Shown one piece after another: positions 1-10,292 of a stretch of DNA of 10,320 bases. Position numbers and translations under genes: made by a program. Under the pieces are notes generated by a model. It was not told the DNA's origin. It worked only from the letters and a program-made list of their open reading frames with translations, and ran no database searches. Position 1 is the first letter of the stretch, and each line of letters begins with the position of its first letter. Source of the stretch: Thermoproteota archaeon (GTDB lineage: Archaea; Thermoproteota; Bathyarchaeia; Bathyarchaeales; Bathycorpusculaceae). Where the stretch lies: NCBI GenBank assembly GCA_012511995.1, contig JAAZFA010000121.1:1-10320 (forward strand), in the 5' to 3' direction.

Positions 1-237
1 CATCTAGTAGAAAGTGAAAAATTACAAGAAAAGACGAATGAACTCAGCAAACACCTGTCTCAAATGGCACCTCTCGCCCTTTTACCTGTTAAAAAACATT
101 TAAACCTAATTGCCCATGGTGATTTTAAAGAAGAGGAAATCATCGAGTTAGTTAAACAATCGGAAGCATCTGATGATATGAAAGAAGGTGTCACTGCGTG
201 GGCTGAAAAACGAGAGCCGGAGTTTAGAGGGGTTTAA
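1..237 (+). CDS. Crotonase-family protein (enoyl-CoA hydratase/isomerase), C-terminal part
   Basis: Partial gene, open at the left edge and ending at TAA 235-237; 78 codons are visible. The translation shows the usual C-terminal pattern of crotonase-fold enzymes: an alpha-helical stretch with MAPLALLPVKKHLN (the family's 'P.a....K..l' helix), then the closing segment SDDMKEGVTAWAEKREPEF, which matches the family signature 's.D..EG..Af.eKR.P.f.G'. Crotonases act on acyl-CoA thioesters in the cytoplasm, mostly in fatty-acid or related carboxylic-acid catabolism. The oxyanion-hole and catalytic residues lie in the missing N-terminal part, so substrate and exact reaction cannot be assigned. It is unrelated to the CRISPR locus and probably marks its left chromosomal boundary. 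No T-tract terminator is visible after its stop. Confidence 0.85.
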   Translation, partial: HLVESEKLQEKTNELSKHLSQMAPLALLPVKKHLNLIAHGDFKEEEIIELVKQSEASDDMKEGVTAWAEKREPEFRGV

Positions 238-272
238 GTAGGTAGGGGTTGTTACCCATGAAATCATGGAAC

Positions 273-302
273 TTCTAAAAGCGCTTTACGAATCCCTATA
301 AT
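273..302 (+). promoter_or_regulatory. Candidate promoter of the cas1-cas2-3 operon
   Basis: A perfect TATAAT -10 hexamer lies at 297-302. The best -35 is weak: TTCTAA at 273-278 with an 18-nt spacer, 3 of 6 to TTGACA. Transcription would start near 309, giving a leader of about 34 nt that carries the cas1 Shine-Dalgarno. The 10-bp palindrome AAAGCGCTTT (278-287) falls inside the spacer and could bind a regulator. The -10 match is directly visible; promoter activity is inferred. Confidence 0.5.
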
Positions 303-330
303 ATATGGAGCCATTTTATCGATATTGAAA

Positions 331-336
331 AGAGGG
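331..336 (+). promoter_or_regulatory. Shine-Dalgarno of cas1, deciding its start
   Basis: AGAGGG stands 6 nt before ATG 343. An upstream in-frame TTG at 325 extends the frame by six codons, but its own first codons run through this ribosome-binding site. ATG 343 is therefore the better start. Confidence 0.75.
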
Positions 337-342
337 TTAAAA

Positions 343-1293
343 ATGACCAATAAGCCACCTTATATACCATCCTCTGATCTCAAAACGATACTCCACTCTA
401 AACGTGCCAATCTGTATTATCTTGAGCACTGTCGTGTGTTAGTTAATGGCGGTCGAGTTGAATACCTAACAGATCAGGGTAAAGAATCCCTTTATTGGAA
501 CATACCGATTGCCAACACCACATCAATTTTATTGGGTACTGGCACATCAATCACTCAAGCTGCAGTTAGAGAGCTAAGTAAAGCAGGTGTTGTTATTGGT
601 TTTTGTGGAGGTGGTGGCACACCACTTTTTGCGGGAACAGAGATAGAGTGGTTAAATCCACAAAGCGAATATCGCCCTACACAATACCTTCAAGACTGGT
701 GCAAATTTTGGTTTGATGATGAACTTCGACTTGAAGCTGCTAAGCTCTTACAAACCAATCGTCTCCAATATATTCAAGCATTATGGCCCGTTATTCACAA
801 TGAGCAAAGCGTACTACAGAAACTATGCGAAGACTATAAACATCGTTTTAATTCAGTACCTGACCATACACACTTATTAACGGCCGAAGGCCGATTTACT
901 TCTCAACTATATCGGATAGCTATTCAAGCCACCTCTTACGATCCTTCATTTACAAGAAGTCATCGTGGAAATGCGCACGACCCAGCAAATCGTTTTCTAG
1001 ATCATGGCAACTATTTAGCGTACGGTTTGGGAGCGACTGCTTGCTGGGTTTTAGGACTTCCTTTTGGACTAGCAATACTACATGGTAAAACGCGTCGTGG
1101 TGGTTTAGTTTTTGATGCCGCAGATATAATCAAGGATGCTATTGTGTTGCCACAAGCATTTATCAGCGCAGTAGAAGGTCATGATGAAAAGAAATTTCGT
1201 CAGATGTGTATTCAAAAATTTACTAAATTCAAAGCATTAGACATCATCATTGATACGTTGAAACTTATTAGTCTGCAAATGCAAAAAGTATGA
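343..1293 (+). CDS. cas1: CRISPR-associated endonuclease Cas1, subtype I-F
   Basis: Metal-dependent DNA integrase that, with the Cas2 part of Cas2-3, inserts new spacers at the leader end of the array. From ATG 343 it is 316 residues, near the roughly 320 usual for I-F Cas1. The N-terminal beta domain runs to about residue 90 and contains GTGTSITQAAVRELSKAGVV, typical of the family. The helical catalytic domain follows. The expected metal ligands are visible: E182 in TAEGRF, H247 in LAILHGKTRRGG, and D258 and D261 in LVFDAADIIKD. The gene appears intact. Its TGA overlaps the ATG of cas2-3 (ATGA, 1290-1293), so the two are probably translationally coupled, which fits the stable Cas1-Cas2/3 complex of I-F systems. 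A TTG start at 325 is possible but less likely because the Shine-Dalgarno AGAGGG lies between the two starts. Confidence 0.97.
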   Translation: MTNKPPYIPSSDLKTILHSKRANLYYLEHCRVLVNGGRVEYLTDQGKESLYWNIPIANTTSILLGTGTSITQAAVRELSKAGVVIGFCGGGGTPLFAGTEIEWLNPQSEYRPTQYLQDWCKFWFDDELRLEAAKLLQTNRLQYIQALWPVIHNEQSVLQKLCEDYKHRFNSVPDHTHLLTAEGRFTSQLYRIAIQATSYDPSFTRSHRGNAHDPANRFLDHGNYLAYGLGATACWVLGLPFGLAILHGKTRRGGLVFDAADIIKDAIVLPQAFISAVEGHDEKKFRQMCIQKFTKFKALDIIIDTLKLISLQMQKV

Positions 1294-4200
1294 ACATCCT
1301 TATCATTAGCCAATGCACTAAAAAAGCACTTAAAGAAACGCGCCGAATTGTTGATCAATTTGCTGAGCGAACTGGTGATAGAGCTTGGCAGACCCAAATA
1401 ACTGCGGAAGGATTAAAAACTCTCCATCGTTTATTAAGAAAAACTGCCAGAAAAAATACGGCAGTTGCTTGCTTTTGGAATCGTGGTCGACACTTAACAG
1501 AACTAATTTGGATTGTTGGGGATAAAAGTCAATTTAATGAAGATGGCAGAACACCAACAAACAGAACCCAAAGAGACATACTTCGCCTCAAAGATGAGAA
1601 TCAATGGAATTATCTAAGCAGCATTCAAATTATGAGTGTGCTTGCTGCTTTACTCCACGATATTGGAAAAGCCACAGTTGGTTTTGACGCTAAGCTACGA
1701 GACCAAACACCACGTTCCGACCCCTATCGTCATGAGTGGATTTCATTATGTTTATTTAAAAAAATGATTGAAGGCTGTCAGAACAATAAAGAGTTTCTTG
1801 AGCGTCTTCGCAATTGGGACATTTATATAAAATCGAATATCAACTGGCACCAAGAATTAGTGATAGATGAAGAGCATAAACAAAGTTTAACGTTTGAATT
1901 TGAAGATATTCCACCCTTAGCGCAGTGGTTAGCATGGCTTATTGTTAGCCACCATCGATTACCATTTTATGATGTTAAATACCGCTGCATGTCGACTCGT
2001 AAACTATTAAGAAAAGACGACTCTAATTACTTACTTCACGATGTTAAGAGTTTCTTTAAAAGCCTTAAACCAGTAGAAAACTGGGTAAAACACCAAATAG
2101 CGATTGATGAGAGTGGAAAAAATCTAGGCTCCTTTTTTAATCTTAAAAAAGATCCAACCAATTCTGACCTATGGATAAAAGATTTACAACGCTGGAGTCG
2201 AAAAGCCCTAAATGATGATTACTTAATGTCACTAACTAACAGTAATGCGCTATGGAATCCCCTTCATTTACACCTCTCCCGATTATGCCTAATGATTGGT
2301 GATCATAATTATTCAAGCCTAAGCAGTGACTCACCTAAACGTATTCTTAATCAAGAAAAATTCAATACTTACTTCCAAATAGCCAAAGAGGATAAGACAT
2401 CAAAAACTAAGCTATGGGCCAATTTTGATCGGAACACAGGCTATGGCAAACAGTTTTTAGATGAGCACCTCGTTGGTGTAGCACGCATGACTGCGAGCTT
2501 TAATCGTTACCTGCCTTTTATACGTCATGAACTTAATAGTCTCAATAATCATTCTCGATTTAGAAAAAGAGCAACCGTACAAAGATTTGCATGGCAAGAT
2601 AAAGCCTGTGATCTCGTTAAAGCTTTTAGTGAAACGAGTGAAAAAAGTGGTTTTTTTGGCGTCAATATTGCCAGCACCGGTACTGGAAAAACATTAGCTA
2701 ATGCAAAAATAATGACTGCTTTGGCTGGTGATAAAAAAGGTTCTCGACTAACCTTTGCTTTAGGTTTAAGAGTCTTAACCTCACAAACTGGACAGTCTTT
2801 AAGAGAACACTTTGATCTAGATGAGGCAACCATTGCTACGCTTATTGGTGGCACAATTTTCCCTGCTTCAACAGAGGTGATTAAAAATCAAGATGCACAG
2901 AGTGGTAGTGAAAGCGCAGCGAGCGATCTGTTTTTTGATAATGGTGAGTTTTTTGATCTCATAGATGAAGGTGGGATCGATGAAGATATATTTGGAACCG
3001 TCATTCACGATCCCAAAACCAAACAACTATTGATGACCCCATGGATTAGTTGCACCATTGATCATTTAATGCAATTGACTGAACAACACCGCGGCGGTCG
3101 CTATATGGCACCTCTTTTAAGAGTTTTAAGTAGTGATTTAATTCTTGATGAGCCAGATGATTTTGGTACAAATGATTTACCAGCGCTTTCAAGACTTATT
3201 TATTGGGCTGGTTTATTAGGCAGTCGAGTGATGCTTTCCTCTGCCACCATTACAAAAGACATGGCTATAGGATTGCATGCAGCTTACGAGTCAGGTAGAA
3301 AAATATGGAATCGCTTCGTCGATTTACCAGAACAACCTACTGTGTGCGCTTGGTTTGATGAGTTTAACCAACATATTCGTCAGACAGATAATATAGGTTT
3401 TACAGAATATCACCAAAAATTTTGTGAAAAAAGAATAAAGAAAATTAGCGAACAACCAATCAGAAGAAAAGCCGACTGGTTAGAGTTTAAATCTAAAAGT
3501 GAACTTAGTTGCAAATTGATGGAGGGTGTTTTAACACTTCATACAACTAATGCTCAAACCTATCAGGACCTATCTGGGAGAGATAAGAAAATAAGTGTAG
3601 GATTAATTCGCTTTGCCAATATTAATCCAATGATGGAGGTATTGCAGGATTTCTTAAATGAAGAGTGCCCTAAGGACACCGTTATCCATGTTGTACCCTA
3701 TCATTCTCAACAACTTTTACTCTTTAGATCAAATCTTGAAAGCATACTAGATCGCTTACTAAATCGAAAATCCCCAGACAATCTTATTAAGCATGCAGAA
3801 ATTCAAACTGCCATTAATACAACAAGTGATGACATCAAAAACCATATATTTATTGTTTTTGGTTCGCCTGTAACGGAGGTTGGTAGAGATCACGACTATG
3901 ATTGGGCAATTATTGAGCCCTCATCAATGCGCTCTATTATTCAGCTTGTTGGCCGCGTATGGAGACACCGTCCTGATAAAATTGCATATGAAGAAAATGT
4001 TTTAATATTAAATCAAAATCTTAAAGCTGAACGTGGTGCTCGTATTGCCTACACTAGACCCGGTTATGAAACAGACGAGTTTCCATTAAGAAATCACAAT
4101 CTTGTTCAAATAATTGATAAGTCTGAAATTGAGAATATTAACTCTATTCCTCGACTACTTAGAGAAAAAATAAAAAAAGAAACAAAGACTACTGCTGCTA

Positions 4201-4769
4201 AGAAAGTAGTCGCAAGAAAACAAGCTTCTATTATGAGAGGTAGGATAGCCCAAAATCAAAACATTTCTGATGCAAGCTTTTTACAAGAAAAAAATGGTTT
4301 AGCATCACTCGAACATAGAGTCATGAAAGATCTTCTTAATAATCAAAATAACTTTCTAAGTTTATATCGACAAGAAAATAATGCAGCAACTTTAACCTCG
4401 CACCATAGCCGTATCAGTCCTTTTAGAGAGAGTTCAGGGTTTGAAGAAACTTATGTTGCCTTACTTAGAAACGGTTATCAAAATGATCTTTTATTAAAAA
4501 GCTATCAAAACGCAAAAAACAATCCAGACGATGACGAGAAGTCTGCCATGCATCATTTTGATTTAGTAGAAATAAAAGATACCGAGCAAATCAAACTTTG
4601 GCTTAAACCCTGCTTTGCAAGTTGCCTGCAAACACTAAGCGAAGAGTTAGGTATCGATGAAGGAAAAGTGGCACTTAGATTTGCTACGGTTAATCTTAGG
4701 AACTACCAAGATGTCTATAGGTGGAAATTCAATCCATGGGGAGGTTTTTGGAGTGGGGGCGCAACGTAA
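1290..4769 (+). CDS. cas2-3: Cas2-Cas3 fusion: adaptation subunit plus HD nuclease/helicase, subtype I-F
   Basis: 1159-residue fusion diagnostic of type I-F; it serves spacer acquisition with Cas1 and degrades targets recruited by the Csy complex. Residues 1 to about 95 form the Cas2-like domain (MNILIISQC start). The HD nuclease follows, with H123-D124 in LLHDIGKA, H148 in YRHEW and H221-H222 in VSHHRLP. The superfamily 2 helicase has Walker A STGTGKT (462-468), a DEAD-type motif DEPD (620-623), motif III SAT (651-653) and motif VI QLVGRVWR (885-892) with arginines R889 and R892. A C-terminal domain follows, with a Lys/Arg-rich segment at about 959-985. All nuclease and ATPase motifs are present, so it looks functional. 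It is somewhat longer than the roughly 1080 residues I remember for Pseudomonas aeruginosa Cas3. It starts within the cas1 stop codon and ends at TAA 4767-4769, followed by a long non-coding gap. Confidence 0.97.
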   Translation: MNILIISQCTKKALKETRRIVDQFAERTGDRAWQTQITAEGLKTLHRLLRKTARKNTAVACFWNRGRHLTELIWIVGDKSQFNEDGRTPTNRTQRDILRLKDENQWNYLSSIQIMSVLAALLHDIGKATVGFDAKLRDQTPRSDPYRHEWISLCLFKKMIEGCQNNKEFLERLRNWDIYIKSNINWHQELVIDEEHKQSLTFEFEDIPPLAQWLAWLIVSHHRLPFYDVKYRCMSTRKLLRKDDSNYLLHDVKSFFKSLKPVENWVKHQIAIDESGKNLGSFFNLKKDPTNSDLWIKDLQRWSRKALNDDYLMSLTNSNALWNPLHLHLSRLCLMIGDHNYSSLSSDSPKRILNQEKFNTYFQIAKEDKTSKTKLWANFDRNTGYGKQFLDEHLVGVARMTASFNRYLPFIRHELNSLNNHSRFRKRATVQRFAWQDKACDLVKAFSETSEKSGFFGVNIASTGTGKTLANAKIMTALAGDKKGSRLTFALGLRVLTSQTGQSLREHFDLDEATIATLIGGTIFPASTEVIKNQDAQSGSESAASDLFFDNGEFFDLIDEGGIDEDIFGTVIHDPKTKQLLMTPWISCTIDHLMQLTEQHRGGRYMAPLLRVLSSDLILDEPDDFGTNDLPALSRLIYWAGLLGSRVMLSSATITKDMAIGLHAAYESGRKIWNRFVDLPEQPTVCAWFDEFNQHIRQTDNIGFTEYHQKFCEKRIKKISEQPIRRKADWLEFKSKSELSCKLMEGVLTLHTTNAQTYQDLSGRDKKISVGLIRFANINPMMEVLQDFLNEECPKDTVIHVVPYHSQQLLLFRSNLESILDRLLNRKSPDNLIKHAEIQTAINTTSDDIKNHIFIVFGSPVTEVGRDHDYDWAIIEPSSMRSIIQLVGRVWRHRPDKIAYEENVLILNQNLKAERGARIAYTRPGYETDEFPLRNHNLVQIIDKSEIENINSIPRLLREKIKKETKTTAAKKVVARKQASIMRGRIAQNQNISDASFLQEKNGLASLEHRVMKDLLNNQNNFLSLYRQENNAATLTSHHSRISPFRESSGFEETYVALLRNGYQNDLLLKSYQNAKNNPDDDEKSAMHHFDLVEIKDTEQIKLWLKPCFASCLQTLSEELGIDEGKVALRFATVNLRNYQDVYRWKFNPWGGFWSGGAT

Positions 4770-4821
4770 TAACAGTCTTAAATACAACGAAAGACCATAT
4801 TAACGCGGATTCACTCCAATG

Positions 4822-4862
4822 ATAAATTGACTAACTATCTATATGACAGTTAGTCAATTTAT
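4822..4862. repeat. Perfect 15-bp inverted repeat with 11-nt loop
   Basis: Left arm ATAAATTGACTAACT (4822-4836) and right arm AGTTAGTCAATTTAT (4848-4862) are exact reverse complements around an 11-nt loop. It lies 52 nt after the cas2-3 stop. Neither side has a T-tract and the stem is AT-rich, so it is not a canonical intrinsic terminator in either direction. It could fold in RNA as the 3' end of the candidate - strand RNA, help end the cas2-3 transcript, or be an operator for a dimeric regulator. Confidence 0.85.
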
Positions 4863-4897
4863 AGAGCATTACACAATAATGAATATAACTCTATCTT

Positions 4898-4925
4898 TTT
4901 AAAGGCTGCCTACACGGCAGAAAAT
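4898..4925 (-). repeat. Solitary degenerate type I-F CRISPR repeat
   Basis: Aligned without gaps to the array repeat, the - strand sequence matches at 22 of 28 positions. Differences are at repeat positions 1 (A for G), 4 (T for C), 12 (T for C), 13 (G for A), 22 (C for T) and 24 (T for A). Both stem arms, CTGCC and GGCAG, are unchanged. The loop is GTGTA instead of GCATA and keeps the G and A at its ends. All features expected for Csy4 recognition and for cleavage after the last stem G are therefore kept, and changes fall only in loop and flanks. It is in inverse orientation to the main array and 4.3 kb from it. Confidence 0.85.
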
Positions 4926-5052
4926 TTACTAACAAAATATACACATTTATAAGCTATCTATTCGATAGAGATAATAATAATTCTATCACCATACACTTTG
5001 ACTTCTAACAACAATTTAGAATTCAAATTTATTTATAAGTATTAACTCTTAT

Positions 5053-5139
5053 ATGCAACTACTTCTAATCATCCTAATATATGAATTAATAAAATTTCAT
5101 CAACCTGTGTCTATTTACAAAAACACGGTTATTCTTTAA
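5053..5139 (+). other. Small hydrophobic ORF, doubtful
   Basis: An ATG-to-TAA frame of 28 codons encodes a peptide beginning MQLLLIILIYELIKF, hydrophobic over its first 12 residues or so. No Shine-Dalgarno sequence precedes it and it overlaps the putative csy1 promoter. The AT-rich composition alone can create such leucine/isoleucine-rich frames. It is listed only because small toxins occur next to crRNA-like RNAs in CreTA modules. Confidence 0.12.
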
Positions 5140-5142
5140 TAT
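5114..5142 (+). promoter_or_regulatory. Candidate promoter of the csy1-csy2-csy3-csy4 operon
   Basis: TTTACA (5114-5119, 5 of 6 to the -35 consensus), a 17-nt spacer and TAATAT (5137-5142, 4 of 6 to the -10 consensus) predict a start near 5149, about 13 nt before the csy1 ATG. A gapped inverted repeat (AACC-T-GTGT at 5102-5110, ACACGGTT at 5123-5130) flanks the -35 box and may be an operator. A second possible -35, TTGACT at 4998-5003, has no good -10 at proper spacing. Confidence 0.45.
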
Positions 5143-5147
5143 AAAAC

Positions 5148-5181
5148 CCAAGATAAACAACATGACAGCAAACTACATTCG
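5148..5181 (+). promoter_or_regulatory. Candidate partial target of the - strand crRNA-like RNA (CC PAM plus seed)
   Basis: CC at 5148-5149 is the I-F PAM and is followed by AAGATAAA at 5150-5157. The guide-like segment on the - strand begins AAGATAGA, so 7 of the first 8 bases match; after that the match is lost. Position 6 of a I-F guide is flipped out, so the effective seed is 6 of 7. The site covers the predicted start of transcription and the ribosome-binding region of csy1. A match of this length can arise by chance, hence the low confidence. Confidence 0.3.
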
Positions 5182-6472
5182 CCAACACCTCCAAAAAACA
5201 TTGGATGGTTTTTATGAGAAAAAGTTTGGTACAGATTTACGTAACTTGCAAAAAGCCATTGATGAAGGCAATCTAGAGTTAGTCGCTAAACTCAAAGAAA
5301 AACTTGAGCCTGAAAAACAAAAGTATGAATTGAATTCTTGGCTCGAAAACGAACTTCCTAAAATGCTAAGAAGTTTAAAATTTGGTACTCACATATCAAA
5401 AGGTCTGCACTCCTCATCTAAAGGCGACAACTTTTATTTCAAAGCAATAGTTAATTTAGATGAGGAGTATATTTTAGGTAGTCACACTATCCCTAAACTA
5501 GCAATCGATGCCAACGGAAACGCCGCCGCTTTACCTCTTTTAGCTTTTATAAAAACTCAAATTGATGACACAAGCCTTAAAGAGCTTATTATTTCTGATT
5601 CTATCAAACTTAAAGGTGTTTTCCACGATAACCCTGACTCTTCAGAAGAGATTAAAAACCAACTAAAAACAAGCCTATTAAACTCGCCAAAAACCCCTTT
5701 AGTTGATGATTTAAACAAACATATTCTTTGGCCTTTGAGCAACAATGCGATTGCAAATGATGATTACATCAATCTATTACCTCTCCACCCTTCTTCATTT
5801 CTAAACCATATCTACTTAAGACTACAAGATCTAAAGTTTGGCGAGCTAAGTCAACTTGCGAGAAAACAACGCGATAGTAAAAAAGGCCCCTACACACCCT
5901 ATCCTATCCTTAACAACCTAGCTGTTATTAAGTTAGGTGGCGCTCAACCGCAAAACGTCAGTAGTTTAAATTCACAGCAAAGCGGGCAAAATTATTTACT
6001 CCCTTCTTTTCCTCCGATTTTTAGAACAAAAGATAATATTCCACTTAAACAAGCAGATGATAGTTTCTTTAATGAACGACTGAAATATCACTGTCGTCCG
6101 GCTTTTAACAGATTAAAAAACATTATTAAACTAAATCAAAATAATAAACGTATCCGCTCACTTCGCCAAGACGCTTTAGATGAAATCATTTTTACCATCC
6201 TCTTAATTGCTGATGACATTCATCGCCAAAAAAATTCAGGTTGGAGCGAAAACTATCAACTCAATAAATACGAGAAGACTTGGCTTGATCCGCAAGCTAT
6301 CGAACAAACTCATTCAGATGATTGGTCAGACGAAGTCGCTCAACGATTTGCGCATTGGCTCAATCGATGGCTACAAAAAGAACTTAAAAGCCTAAGAGAC
6401 GATTTAGCAAAAAAAGAGTATCAGTACTGGCAAGGCGAGATGTTAAACATATTAAAACTTAAGTATATGTGA
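5162..6472 (+). CDS. csy1: Csy1 (Cas8f), large subunit of the type I-F surveillance complex
   Basis: 436 residues, against about 434 in Pseudomonas aeruginosa. Csy1 binds the crRNA 5' handle together with Csy2, recognises the CC PAM and starts unwinding of the target. Visible family features are the N-terminal segment SLKFGTHISKGLHSSSKGDN (71-90), the central block LGGAQPQNVSSLNSQQSGQN (258-277) running into YLLPSFPP, and a C-terminal tryptophan-rich helix region (AHWLNRWLQKEL, then EYQYWQGEM). In the central block relatives usually have KPQN, which from memory holds the PAM-contacting Lys and Asn; here the Lys is Q262 while N265 is kept. Start ATG 5162 has only a weak purine stretch upstream, and the codon lies about 13 nt after the predicted transcription start. 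It is the first gene of the csy operon; its stop is 9 nt from csy2. Confidence 0.95.
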   Translation: MTANYIRQHLQKTLDGFYEKKFGTDLRNLQKAIDEGNLELVAKLKEKLEPEKQKYELNSWLENELPKMLRSLKFGTHISKGLHSSSKGDNFYFKAIVNLDEEYILGSHTIPKLAIDANGNAAALPLLAFIKTQIDDTSLKELIISDSIKLKGVFHDNPDSSEEIKNQLKTSLLNSPKTPLVDDLNKHILWPLSNNAIANDDYINLLPLHPSSFLNHIYLRLQDLKFGELSQLARKQRDSKKGPYTPYPILNNLAVIKLGGAQPQNVSSLNSQQSGQNYLLPSFPPIFRTKDNIPLKQADDSFFNERLKYHCRPAFNRLKNIIKLNQNNKRIRSLRQDALDEIIFTILLIADDIHRQKNSGWSENYQLNKYEKTWLDPQAIEQTHSDDWSDEVAQRFAHWLNRWLQKELKSLRDDLAKKEYQYWQGEMLNILKLKYM

Positions 6473-6481
6473 GCTTGAAAA

Positions 6482-7477
6482 ATGAACAATACAACTTTTT
6501 ACATACACATAGACCAAATGAAGATCTTAGATGCTAATGCCATCTCTGGACCACTCACGTACGGCTTTCCTAGTCTTAATGGCTTTTTAGGTGCTACTCA
6601 TGCACTAGAAAGAAAGCTTAACGCTTCTTCAGACTTTCCAGACATTCAGTTTGATGGTGTTTTAATCGCTTGCCGAGATCACAAAATAAAAATTGATACC
6701 TCTGGTTATGATGGCAGATTTATCCAAAAACGAGCTCCGATAAAACGCGATGGCAAAACCGCATCAATCACTGAAGAAGGCTACGTTGATTTAACGGTGA
6801 GCTTAATTATCAGAGCAAAAGGCAGTGAAACTGAGTTCTTAAACTCAGAATCCAATAAAGAGTTATTAGAAAAGAAATTCAAAAACTTTTGTCTTTCACA
6901 ACGTTTTGCTGGTGGCGCGGTGATATCCATTGAAAAGATTTCTTTTTATCCAACAGAGCAAGCAGATAGCTTAAAAAAACTGCTTCTTCCTAGTTATGTA
7001 CTAATAGATGCTACAGATGAAGCGATGAGCATTTATGAAGAAATGGTTCAAGGCTACCGAAGTGATGCTGATGAGGAGATCGATGAAAACACTGGGGAAA
7101 TTAAAAACAGAGTTCATAACCCCTTAGGTAGTAATCCTACAGCTAGCACTTTGGATATCTTACTCAGCACCTTAATTACCTATCAAATCCCACCTGAGTC
7201 TGATGATGGGATATGGCAAAGCTATTCCTTCAAAAGTGGGCGCGGATGGTTAGTACCGATACCAATTGGATATCAAGCCATTAGTAATAAATACGAACCT
7301 CATAGCATAAAAGCTGTGCGTAACCCCAACTATCCATCACAATTTGTTGAAACCATTTACGCTCTTGGTAAATGGGAGTTTCCACACCGACTTAAAGGCG
7401 ATTTTAACCAGTACTTTTGGCGCTATACAGAAACCGTGGAAAACCTTTATCTGATCCAACCTAACTATACCGATTAA
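6482..7477 (+). CDS. csy2: Csy2 (Cas5f), crRNA 5'-handle binding subunit
   Basis: 331 residues, close to the roughly 327 of Pseudomonas aeruginosa Csy2. It has a RAMP-type fold, pairs with Csy1 at the foot of the complex and holds the crRNA 5' handle. The N-terminal signature GPLTYGFPSLNGFLGATHAL (23-42) matches the family's 'sPLTwGFPs...FLGf.HAL'. The C-terminal block GRGWLVPIPIGYQAI (253-267), followed by QFVETIYALGKWEFPHRL (287-304), is also diagnostic. It starts 9 nt after the csy1 stop, with only a weak GAG upstream, so translational coupling to csy1 is likely. No truncation is seen. Confidence 0.95.
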   Translation: MNNTTFYIHIDQMKILDANAISGPLTYGFPSLNGFLGATHALERKLNASSDFPDIQFDGVLIACRDHKIKIDTSGYDGRFIQKRAPIKRDGKTASITEEGYVDLTVSLIIRAKGSETEFLNSESNKELLEKKFKNFCLSQRFAGGAVISIEKISFYPTEQADSLKKLLLPSYVLIDATDEAMSIYEEMVQGYRSDADEEIDENTGEIKNRVHNPLGSNPTASTLDILLSTLITYQIPPESDDGIWQSYSFKSGRGWLVPIPIGYQAISNKYEPHSIKAVRNPNYPSQFVETIYALGKWEFPHRLKGDFNQYFWRYTETVENLYLIQPNYTD

Positions 7478-7485
7478 AATGTCAC

Positions 7486-7490
7486 AGGAG
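7486..7490 (+). promoter_or_regulatory. Strong Shine-Dalgarno of csy3
   Basis: AGGAG stands 7 nt before ATG 7498 and is the best ribosome-binding site in the csy operon. This fits the need for six Csy3 copies per complex against one each of Csy1, Csy2 and Csy4. Confidence 0.75.
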
Positions 7491-7497
7491 TTATATT

Positions 7498-8499
7498 ATG
7501 TCTACAATTAAAGTTGCTTCCGTACTTGCCTTTGAGCGCAAATTTGATTTTTCAGATGCTCATTTTTATCAGAAAGATAGTACCAGTGATAACCAAGAGC
7601 TATTGCCTGTCCAGATTCAAGAAAAATCCGTTCGTGGCACAATCTCAAACCGTCAAAAAAATGCTATTGCAAATGATCCTGTCAAATTAGATGCTGAGGT
7701 CCAGAAACCTAACTTGCAGACAGTTGATGTTGCTATGTTAAATGACGCCTGCGATACCTTAGTAGCTAGTTTCACTTTAAAAGTATTACCTTTTGAGGGT
7801 AAACCTTCAATCTGTAACGACCAAAAATATCAAACAAAATTAGAAGAAACCGTTCAGAATTACATTGAAAATATTGGATTCAAAGAATTAGCTAATCGCT
7901 ATGCTCAAAACATTCTAAATGCCAGATGGTTATGGCGTAATCGTATGGGTGCTAAAAATGTTCGTATAACAGTAAAAAATGAGAAAGAAACACTCGTTAT
8001 TGAAGATGCTAAATCATTAAGTTTAATGAATTTCGAACAAAGTAATAATGAAATTAATCAATTAGCAGAATGGATTATAAGTGGTCTAAGTGGTAAAAGC
8101 GCACCTGTTTTTATCGATGTTAAAGCTGAAGCGCTTGTCGGTGCTGGACAGGAAGTTTATCCATCACAAGAATTAATTCTTGATAGTTCAGATGATAAAA
8201 GCAAAGTGCTCTATAGTTCAAATGAAAAAGCATCTATGCACAATCAAAAAGTTGGTAATGCTATTCGCACCATTGATACTTGGTACTCTGATGAAGTAAG
8301 CTTCCCAATCGCAGCTGAACCATATGGGGCTGTTACTACTCTAGGTACAGCTTTTAGACAACCTAAGACTAAAAATGACTTTTACACCCTTTTCGATAAT
8401 TGGGTCCTTAAAGATGAAACCCCTGATACAGAACAACAACATTATATCATTGCAGTGTTAATTCGCGGTGGCGTATTTGGTGCTAGTGGTAAGGAATAA
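7498..8499 (+). CDS. csy3: Csy3 (Cas7f), crRNA backbone subunit
   Basis: 333 residues, the usual family length of about 340. Six copies polymerise along the spacer part of the crRNA, with a thumb from each flipping out every sixth nucleotide. Family blocks are easy to see: VLAFERKFDFSDAHFY (9-24), EKSVRGTISNR (42-52), ELANRYAQNILNARWLWRNR (130-149), GAGQEVYPSQEL (215-226), MHNQKVGNAIRTIDTWY (247-263), EPYGAVTTLGTAFR (274-287) and the closing LIRGGVFG (321-328). The gene is intact. It sits 20 nt after csy2 with its own strong ribosome-binding site and ends 3 nt before csy4. Confidence 0.97.
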   Translation: MSTIKVASVLAFERKFDFSDAHFYQKDSTSDNQELLPVQIQEKSVRGTISNRQKNAIANDPVKLDAEVQKPNLQTVDVAMLNDACDTLVASFTLKVLPFEGKPSICNDQKYQTKLEETVQNYIENIGFKELANRYAQNILNARWLWRNRMGAKNVRITVKNEKETLVIEDAKSLSLMNFEQSNNEINQLAEWIISGLSGKSAPVFIDVKAEALVGAGQEVYPSQELILDSSDDKSKVLYSSNEKASMHNQKVGNAIRTIDTWYSDEVSFPIAAEPYGAVTTLGTAFRQPKTKNDFYTLFDNWVLKDETPDTEQQHYIIAVLIRGGVFGASGKE

Positions 8500-8502
8500 A
8501 TC

Positions 8503-9075
8503 ATGTTGAGTCATTATTTTGAGATTAAAGCCGTTCCTCACGAGGAAATGCCACAATCTGCTATTACATCATTAGCAATGCAGGATCTTCATAGCTTATT
8601 AAAAGATTTTGAAGGTAAAGTTGCACTAGCCTTTCCTAATTATCAGAAACATGTACTGACCTTAGGCGGAAGAATTCGCTGTTTTGGTGACTCAGCTTCA
8701 TTAGAAATTTTACGATTAAAGCTTAGCAATAAAACTATTTCTGACTACGCTATTATCACAAACATAAACCCTGTCCCAACTAATATACGTGGTTACTATA
8801 ACTATAGTAGGGTTCAAAATAAAGGGCTTAGCGATTTAAGAAGACAACAAAGACGTTTGGAAAGTGAAGGTGTTTGTGAAGATAGAATTAAAGAAATTCT
8901 TGGCAATAAAGCACAGAATCAAAAGCAGATTACCTTGCCACATGTCCATATAAAAAGCTCCTCTACAGGTCAACAGTTTTTGTTAATGATTAAACAAAAA
9001 CAAAAACCAATGAAATCAACTGGCGTTTTTAATAGCTACGGTTTAAGTAAAGATGCTACCGTGCCTTGGTTTTAA
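8503..9075 (+). CDS. csy4: Csy4 (Cas6f), crRNA-processing endoribonuclease
   Basis: 190 residues, against 187 in Pseudomonas aeruginosa. Csy4 binds the repeat hairpin, cuts at its 3' base without metal and stays on the crRNA as the head of the complex. The catalytic histidine is H30 in MQDLHSLL, equivalent to H29. The arginine-rich helix that enters the RNA major groove is visible as LRRQQRRLE (112-120), preceded by R103 in YSRVQ. The active-site serine lies in KSSSTGQQF (151-159). The protein ends with the diagnostic YGLSKDATVPWF. A ribosome-binding site AAGGAA (8491-8496) lies across the end of csy3, 6 nt before the ATG. It is the last gene before the operon terminator and the array. Confidence 0.97.
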   Translation: MLSHYFEIKAVPHEEMPQSAITSLAMQDLHSLLKDFEGKVALAFPNYQKHVLTLGGRIRCFGDSASLEILRLKLSNKTISDYAIITNINPVPTNIRGYYNYSRVQNKGLSDLRRQQRRLESEGVCEDRIKEILGNKAQNQKQITLPHVHIKSSSTGQQFLLMIKQKQKPMKSTGVFNSYGLSKDATVPWF

Positions 9076-9144
9076 TACTAGAACAGTTTAATTTTTAATT
9101 AGATTAAACAAAAAACGAATTTTATTCTTATTCAACAAAATAAC

Positions 9145-9188
9145 CCTTTTAAATATTCTCCTAGGGGGAATGTTTAAAAGGTTTTTTT
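9145..9188 (+). terminator. Intrinsic terminator of the csy operon
   Basis: A 17-bp stem (left arm 9145-9161, right arm 9165-9181) closes a 3-nt TAG loop. Fifteen pairs are Watson-Crick and two are G-T wobbles at 9154 and 9159. Seven T residues follow (9182-9188). The paired CC/GG ends and T-tract make it a strong rho-independent terminator for + strand transcripts, 69 nt past the csy4 stop. It separates cas mRNA from array transcription. Confidence 0.88.
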
Positions 9189-9242
9189 GACTAGCTCTTT
9201 AAAAACTTGGAATTAATAAGGTTTTGAAGCATAATAATGCTA
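9189..9242 (+). promoter_or_regulatory. CRISPR leader with candidate array promoter
   Basis: AT-rich segment between the terminator and the first repeat. TTGGAA (9207-9212), a 17-nt spacer and CATAAT (9230-9235, 5 of 6 to consensus) predict a start at about 9242, right before repeat 1. An alternative -35, TTGACT (9187-9192), overlaps the end of the T-tract but has only weak -10 partners. I-F integration usually depends on IHF bending the leader. Only weak IHF-like matches (7 of 9 constrained bases) occur, at 9200-9212 and 9217-9229 in reverse orientation. The functional leader may reach further left through the terminator. Confidence 0.55.
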
Positions 9243-10292
9243 GTTCTCTGCCGCATAGGCAGCTTATAAATAACTTGCCTTGGGCGGATGAACATTTCAT
9301 TAGTTCTCTGCCGCATAGGCAGCTTATAAACACGGACTGATCTTTTAACTGTAGTGACTTACGGTTCTCTGCCGCATAGGCAGCTTATAAATAAGTCCTT
9401 TACTCTGTCGCGCGCTGCTTGTCGTTCTCTGCCGCATAGGCAGCTTATAAATTAAAGCGTGAGCGATTGATTGCTGAGATGAAGTTCTCTGCCGCATAGG
9501 CAGCTTATAAAAAGCGTATGCGGATTGGTTAGAGAAGCAGAACGTTCTCTGCCGCATAGGCAGCTTATAAAATGCTGACCGCTCGTGTGTAATCAAAGCC
9601 ATGGTTCTCTGCCGCATAGGCAGCTTATAAAAGTCGAGCCGGACAGTAAGCCGATGCCCATATGTTCTCTGCCGCATAGGCAGCTTATAAAACCATCAAA
9701 ACCGTCACGACCTCGCGCCTTGCGTTCTCTGCCGCATAGGCAGCTTATAAAGCTCCGGGGTCTCGGTTGCTGTGCCCGGCGCTGTTCTCTGCCGCATAGG
9801 CAGCTTATAAAAAAGCGGAGCTAATGGACTTGTGGCGCGCTCAGTTCTCTGCCGCATAGGCAGCTTATAAAACAACTTTAAACTTGGAAAAGAGAGCAAA
9901 GAGGTTCTCTGCCGCATAGGCAGCTTATAAAACAAAGCATTGTTCCATCGGCGAACTTAACGTGTTCTCTGCCGCATAGGCAGCTTATAAATTGGGCTCC
10001 GGCTGGGTGAAGACTGACACCTTGTTCTCTGCCGCATAGGCAGCTTATAAATTTTGCTGCTCCCTTCTTTCCTCTCTGACGGCGTTCTCTGCCGCATAGG
10101 CAGCTTATAAACTAGAGAATGAGTCGGACAACTCGGAGGTGGGGTTCTCTGCCGCATAGGCAGCTTATAAATTCTATTTTCACCGTCATGTCGGGACTCC
10201 CTCGTTCTCTGCCGCATAGGCAGCTTATAAATACGAGCGTTTAAGCTAGCAGCCGAGGACATGGGTTCTCTGTCGCATAGGCAGCTTATAAA
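9243..10292 (+). CRISPR. Type I-F CRISPR array, 18 repeats and 17 complete spacers in the window
   Basis: The 28-nt repeat has 5' flank GTTCT, stem CTGCC, loop GCATA, stem GGCAG and 3' part CTTATAAA, the latter becoming the crRNA 5' handle after Csy4 cutting. Repeats start at 9243, 9303, 9364 and then every 60 nt to 10204, with the last at 10265. The first 17 are identical; the last has T instead of C at position 9. Spacers are 32 nt, except spacer 2 (9331-9363) and spacer 17 (10232-10264), which are 33 nt. Repeat orientation and the leader on the csy4 side show rightward transcription and newest spacers at the left. After the last repeat, 28 nt remain to the window edge; a next repeat would begin only at about 10325, so the array may continue or end here. 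Confidence 0.99.

Follow-up and report, generated by a model that had tools for sequence, protein, structure and literature searches.

In a type I-F CRISPR locus, cas2-3 and csy1 are separated by a gap of 392 nt, which houses a mini-CRISPR, in which two degenerate repeats (psiR1 and psiR2) enclose a 20-nt guide. The site matched by this guide lies immediately ahead of the csy effector genes, so the element is probably a built-in brake. We consider it very likely that it encodes a crRNA of the CreR type, which directs the Csy complex to the csy promoter and lowers transcription of csy1-csy4. The kind of element is already known; the example described here is new and minimal. Throughout, the window denotes the whole stretch of 10,320 nt that was analyzed.

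The I-F locus and its two degenerate repeats

The window contains a complete type I-F CRISPR locus, whose cas genes all scored above the NCBIfam cut-offs, and an array with spacers of 32 nt (Table 1). Between csy4 and the array, an inverted repeat with 24-nt arms (9138-9188, 83%) and a T run at its end resembles a terminator. A gene fragment at the contig edge (1-237) resembles the C-terminal part of an enoyl-CoA hydratase, with a PF00378 score of 24.8 bits, slightly below the cut-off of 27.

Table 1. Features of the I-F locus in the window
Feature	Position	Strand	Remarks
cas1	325-1293		NCBIfam
cas2-3	1290-4769		NCBIfam
A/T-rich hairpin	4822-4862		3' of both the mini-CRISPR and cas2-3; -21.6 kcal/mol, z -8.1
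psiR2, second degenerate repeat	4898-4925	-	22/28 versus array repeat
Predicted mature RNA, 48 nt	4906-4953	-	8-nt handle, 20-nt guide and 20-nt stem-loop handle, as expected from Csy4 cutting
psiS, 20-nt guide TGTGTATATTTTGTTAGTAA	4926-4945	-	between psiR1 and psiR2
psiR1 (TATCTCTATCGAATAGATAGCTTATAAA), first degenerate repeat	4946-4973	-	21/28 versus array repeat
Candidate -10 box of the mini-CRISPR, TAGAAT	4980-4985	-	TGA before it; 6 nt upstream of psiR1
Target	5104-5125	+	PAM CC 5104-5105, protospacer 5106-5125
Candidate csy1 promoter, TTTACA-17-TAATAT	5114-5142	+	consensus match only; -35 box within protospacer
csy1 (cas8f)	5162-6472	+	TIGR02564, 306 bits; first gene past target; presumed regulated
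csy2, csy3, csy4	6482-9075	+	TIGR02565, TIGR02566, TIGR02563; remainder of presumed regulated operon
csy4 (RNA processor)	8503-9075		NCBIfam
Canonical CRISPR array	9243-10292	+	repeat GTTCTCTGCCGCATAGGCAGCTTATAAA, 60-nt period

Two other contigs of the bin are archaeal in character. One of them (C452) carries the archaeal ribosomal proteins L4 (TIGR03672 rpl4p_arch, 330.7 bits) and L2. Another (C117) encodes an RNA polymerase A1 subunit above the cut-off (TIGR02390, 1321.6 bits) and gave only sub-cut-off matches to bacterial rpoB; of 14 control genomes, 4 also exceeded the TIGR02390 cut-off. When Csy1 was searched for in 100 genomes, the window's own was the sole match, with none in the 99 relatives of its bin. 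The I-F contig is probably bacterial and was placed in the wrong, archaeal bin; its transfer into an archaeal genome is less likely.

An earlier, sequence-only reading had noticed psiR2, and comparison with the array repeat bore out its description: 22 matching positions, 10/10 stem bases, the loop G and A retained and a handle preserved at 6/8 positions. The 35-nt stretch (4897-4863) and the hairpin that it had placed behind this repeat were also found, the latter with arms at 4822-4839 and 4845-4862 that are 94% complementary. However, psiR2 is not the lone repeat it was taken for, as the same strand carries psiR1 20 nt further upstream, and both read away from csy1. psiR1 supplies an 8-nt 5' handle, CTTATAAA (4953-4946), that is identical to the array handle (8/8). 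Its stem, CTATC/GATAG compared with CTGCC/GGCAG in the array, has four changed bases and retains all five pairs.

RNA folding formed the 5-bp stem in psiR1 as well as in psiR2. Rfam returned sub-threshold matches only, namely CRISPR-DR4 at 16.1 bits for psiR1 and 22.8 bits for psiR2 (gathering score, 35) and otherwise microRNA families and Yfr8. The top repeat match was 19/28 in 3,000 dinucleotide-shuffled intergenic regions (reached in 2) and likewise 19 in 100 shuffles of window positions 1-9200 (reached in 4). A chance origin of the repeats was rejected, given 22/28 for psiR2 against this shuffle maximum. The pair also departs from a canonical array in its diverged repeats, its 20-nt spacer and the -10-like box adjoining psiR1.

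In I-F crRNAs, the first repeat donates the 5' handle, and therefore the guide is the 20-nt stretch at 4945-4926. Csy4 cleaves after position 20 of the repeat. The mature RNA is thus predicted to start at 4953 with CTTATAAA, not at 4905 with the psiR2 handle CCTTTAAA as had been proposed. The last 8 bases of psiR2 are expected to erode because they are absent from the mature RNA, whose predicted fold was ordinary relative to shuffled sequences (z -1.3). For the candidate -10 box, no good -35 element was seen upstream, and the box is absent from the promoter-scan calls. The hairpin at 4822-4862 is a possible two-way RNA 3' end; it has no T tract on either side, and the terminator scan called no site there.

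The guide and its target upstream of csy1

Guide positions 1-5 and 7-11 pair with the target, giving a seed match of 10/10 beside CC, and position 6, a flipped base, is the only mismatch within the seed stretch (guide positions 1-11). Past the seed, pairing is limited to 2 of 9 positions, for a total of 12/20. The target lies 56 nt upstream of the computed csy1 start codon. Nowhere else in the 2.23-Mb bin, which seems to consist mostly of DNA from another organism, is CC followed by the exact seed.

Several controls address how readily such a match would arise. Among shuffled guides, 78 of 300,000 had a full seed match next to one or another of the gap's 10 CC dinucleotides, as did 1 of 23,030 20-mers drawn from the gaps of the 29 other loci scanned (see below). 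The whole-guide score was modest compared with shuffled guides (P = 0.013). On the basis of the shuffled-guide seed counts and the PAM and shuffle controls of the scan, a chance origin of the target was rejected.

The assignment of a csy1 promoter at 5114 is weak, because four promoter-like sites were called between 4700 and 5250, with 3.8 expected; the candidate scored 5.7 and the runner-up at 5107 scored 5.5. The stretch from the protospacer end to csy1 contains no start codon. Given this and the distance of 56 nt, a bound complex would block csy1.

The same arrangement could instead belong to an addiction module of the CreTA type, in which the RNA would be the antitoxin (CreA) and would repress a small toxin RNA nearby, not the csy operon. 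Gap position, orientation, 20-nt guide and CC PAM are as in the published Acinetobacter creA, and there are short open reading frames (ORFs) to consider: the target lies within one of 28 amino acids (5053-5139, +), another of 10 codons with a GTG start (5107-5139, +) begins inside the target, and a third of 4 codons, with AGGT upstream (5100-5086, -), comes after the target on the opposite strand. However, csy1 follows the target after only 56 nt with no intervening start codon, compared with 204 nt in the Acinetobacter strain LoGeW2-3, and Shine-Dalgarno-like motifs in the gap are restricted to 4 bases in four ORFs (4879, +; 5100, -; 5058, -; 4876, -), with none longer. A creT mini-ORF with a Shine-Dalgarno sequence between the target and csy1 was sought on the + strand and rejected, as none was found. 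We regard a CreTA module as unlikely, although a toxin RNA that lacks an ORF, or one encoded on the - strand, may be present.

An even smaller probability is assigned to a decoy RNA resembling phage Racr, which would only sequester Csy4 or Csy3 and have no DNA target. Solitary repeat RNAs do inhibit I-F systems, according to PMC10651486. Yet the element combines two repeats with a 20-nt guide that matches a PAM-flanked site right before csy1, and it sits in the cas locus, whereas Racr is a solitary repeat encoded in a virus; a decoy is thus highly improbable. The viral contigs searched contained neither a Csy1 relative nor an exact match to the guide. A search for close relatives of the window's intergenic region found none; the nearest named Csy1 is 50% identical, and the three nearest Csy1 proteins (P0002-P0004) are 53-56% identical.

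Related elements in other I-F loci

The survey comprised 44 named loci with Csy1 relatives and the window. The gap was at least 100 nt in 30 of these 45 loci, and the other 15 (14 with a gap below 100 nt and L037, cut off by a contig end) were left unscanned. To count as positive in an automated scan, a gap had to contain a stem whose handle was close to that of the array and, after it, a guide whose seed matched a PAM-flanked site at 9/10 positions or more. With CC as the PAM, 20 of 30 loci were positive, the window included. The other 15 dinucleotides yielded two positives for TA, one each for CA and TC and none for the remaining 12, and shuffled gaps yielded a mean of 0.0 in 10 rounds. Mini-CRISPR elements are thus common among the surveyed I-F loci with a cas3-csy1 gap, although 20/30 describes the sample surveyed and is not a census. 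Furthermore, the 20 positives are not 20 independent events, because several are closely related (L012/L015, L038/L044 and L010/L013).

Fourteen of the positive elements read away from csy1 and six towards it (L010, L011, L013, L016, L017 and L018). The ten negatives were L009, L020, L021, L022, L033, L034, L039, L041, L042 and L045; L042 revealed two repeats and a target once an imperfect stem was permitted, while L039 was negative by hand too (P = 0.195). Outside the 30, an element on the Psychrobacter plasmid pA11BP5 (L049, 3309-3178) was missed at first and became positive when one stem mismatch, located in its first stem, was allowed; its guide has a seed match of 10/10 and 17/20 in total to a target at 3376 on the - strand. 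A slightly relaxed search also recovered the published LoGeW2-3 element (L048), which served as a positive control (seed 10/10, 17/20 in total, target 204 nt from csy1).

Recurrence bears on the idea that the pair is a nonfunctional remnant of a second, decaying array. In its favour, both repeats are degenerate, and the Psychrobacter urativorans locus (L014) holds a third repeat and, with it, a 32-nt spacer of the ordinary kind. Against this stand the psiR1 stem, in which four bases changed and yet remained paired, its 8/8 handle, the match of guide and target beside the right PAM and the presence of elements at 20 of 30 loci. Decay would not yield paired stem changes, a PAM-flanked match and recurrence, and we therefore judge a remnant to be very unlikely.

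To compare the two repeats as guide donors, we used 17 two-repeat elements, including the window's, hand-picked from 18 pairs; the pair around the ordinary 32-nt spacer of L014, which is without a target, was omitted. A CC-flanked target (seed of at least 9/10) existed for the 20 nt behind the first repeat in 17/17 elements, and for the nucleotides behind the second repeat in 0/17. This result, together with the target scan in the window, argues against a single repeat at 4925-4898 with the handle CCTTTAAA and a 35-nt guide past 4898, as the sequence-only reading envisaged. psiR2 itself is real and stem-perfect. However, the first 20 nt of that guide reach a seed of only 5/10 at CC sites of the gap and 8/10 window-wide, compared with 10/10 for the guide between the repeats, and this candidate was rejected; a single-repeat anatomy is scarcely credible. 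Since psiR1 exists as a partner, the repeat that donates the handle and the guide had both been misjudged, while the core idea, that the csy operon has an I-F autoregulator, is well supported.

Guides in the 17 two-repeat elements were 14 to 27 nt long, and thus all fell short of the 32-nt spacers in the window's array. Four elements (L031, L027, L013 and L016) have guides of less than 20 nt, so that their last positions fall in psiR2. The asymmetry between the handles of the two repeats (0.94 versus 0.52) is a biased measure, because psiR1 copies were found partly through their handle. A TATAAT-like hexamer ending 0 to 12 nt upstream of psiR1 was present at 17 of 20 loci, compared with a mean of 4.8 and a maximum of 12 in shuffled sequences; these 20 loci differ from the scan positives in that L042 was included, whereas L014, with its ordinary spacer upstream, and L039 were excluded. 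Mini-CRISPR genes thus seem to start at psiR1.

In the 20 guide-target pairs, positions 1-5, 7 and 10 matched always, and positions 6, 12 and 18 matched in 9, 6 and 8 pairs, respectively. We take these last three to be the bases that are flipped out of the crRNA-DNA duplex in type I effectors. PMC8501985 describes positions 6 and 12 as unpaired. At the 19 loci without the window, positions 6, 12 and 18 matched in 23 of 57 cases and positions 13-17, 19 and 20 in 100 of 133; the seed positions had served for selection, and positions 13-17, 19 and 20 had not. With its total of 12/20, the window ranks last among the 20 positive loci. By eye, the guides of the sister loci L010 and L013 differ at positions 5, 10 and 11, and their targets show the same three changes and additionally differ at 6, 18 and 19.

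The target lay at most 120 nt from the computed csy1 start in 16 of 20 positives (15 of 19 without the window), the exceptions being L002 (161 nt), L017 (282 nt), L012 (421 nt) and L015 (413 nt). Targets overlapped predicted promoters in 16 of 21 cases, a count for which no null was computed. Some loci showed further features. A DUF2188 gene (5611-5850) lies between the guide-matched site and csy1 in L012 from Psychrobacter, with a similar ORF seen by eye in L015, and is possibly regulated cargo. The same is possible for a 78-amino-acid ORF without a Pfam or NCBIfam match between target and csy1 in L017 (5737-5973). Oligella urethralis (L002) has two CC-flanked guide sites, at 5816 (16/20) and at 5945 (14/20), the latter near the csy1 start. 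In L014, three degenerate repeats (5807-5699) enclose the 32-nt spacer and a guide of 20 nt, whose target, flanked by CC, lies 77 nt upstream of csy1; the locus may be a mini-CRISPR caught gaining or losing a spacer.

A proposed csy self-brake and known systems

Based on these features, we propose that a short RNA would be transcribed leftward from a promoter ending at psiR1. Csy4 would cut psiR1 and psiR2, with the cut at the psiR2 stem-loop forming the 3' end, and release a crRNA of 48 nt whose handle is normal and whose guide is truncated to 20 nt. Once it has taken up this crRNA, the Csy complex would bind the CC-flanked target at 5104-5125 through the 11-nt seed, leaving position 6 unpaired, and would cover the -35 box of the csy1 promoter, so that transcription of csy1-csy4 is reduced. 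A guide this short and only partly paired should not license cleavage by Cas2-3. By repressing csy1-csy4, free Csy complex would thus limit its own synthesis, and the brake would be released once the complex is occupied or disabled by array crRNAs or anti-CRISPRs. Points against the brake include the pairing past the seed (2/9) and promoter calls that, by their number, are no better than chance.

If the brake operates, the I-F system would sense its own free effector, and depleted or disabled Csy complex would lead to higher csy expression. We further suggest, as something possible rather than probable, that an I-F effector regulating its own promoter through a truncated guide, with little pairing beyond the 11-nt seed, reflects a general I-F design. 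As parts of this tentative reading, shortened guides and unpaired 6th, 12th and 18th positions might allow binding without Cas2-3 cleavage, and pairing past the seed might tune the strength of the csy brake in each lineage. The natural range of guide length and pairing would then offer a ready series for determining how much pairing repression needs without self-cleavage.

CreR, the Cas-regulating RNA, was reportedly described by Liu et al. in 2023. Shmakov et al. are also said to have found, in 2023, mini-arrays partly complementary to cas promoters, above all that of cas8, and to have tested an I-F1 example; the window's element differs in its lineage and its seed-only pairing. According to reviews, CreR is a mini-CRISPR RNA that is partly complementary to a cas promoter and generally comes without a toxin. 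Likewise, the window has degenerate repeats outside the array and in the cas locus, and the PAM-flanked site that its guide partly matches lies at a predicted cas promoter. The cases named in one review are of types I-B, I-E and V-A, whereas the predicted element here is I-F. A literature search for I-F versions found the Acinetobacter CreTA and no paper on an I-F CreR, with the two likeliest papers beyond its reach.

The haloarchaeal I-B CreA is similar in its use of seed positions 1-5 and 7-11, at which complementarity suffices, and in the handle asymmetry between its two repeats, the first of which supplies the 5' handle (PMC8501985). It differs in Cas subtype, in its TTC PAM and in its toxin target. 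The closest resemblance in layout is to the I-F CreTA of Acinetobacter WCHA45 and LoGeW2-3, which likewise occupies the cas3-csy1 gap (PMC10097628) with two degenerate repeats, a 20-nt guide and a CC PAM and reads away from csy1. Its target drives a 33-bp toxin ORF and pairs at 17/20 positions, and the tested I-F CreA also required positions 13-17 (PMC10097628). In contrast, the target in the window is followed directly by csy1 and matches the guide at 12/20 positions.
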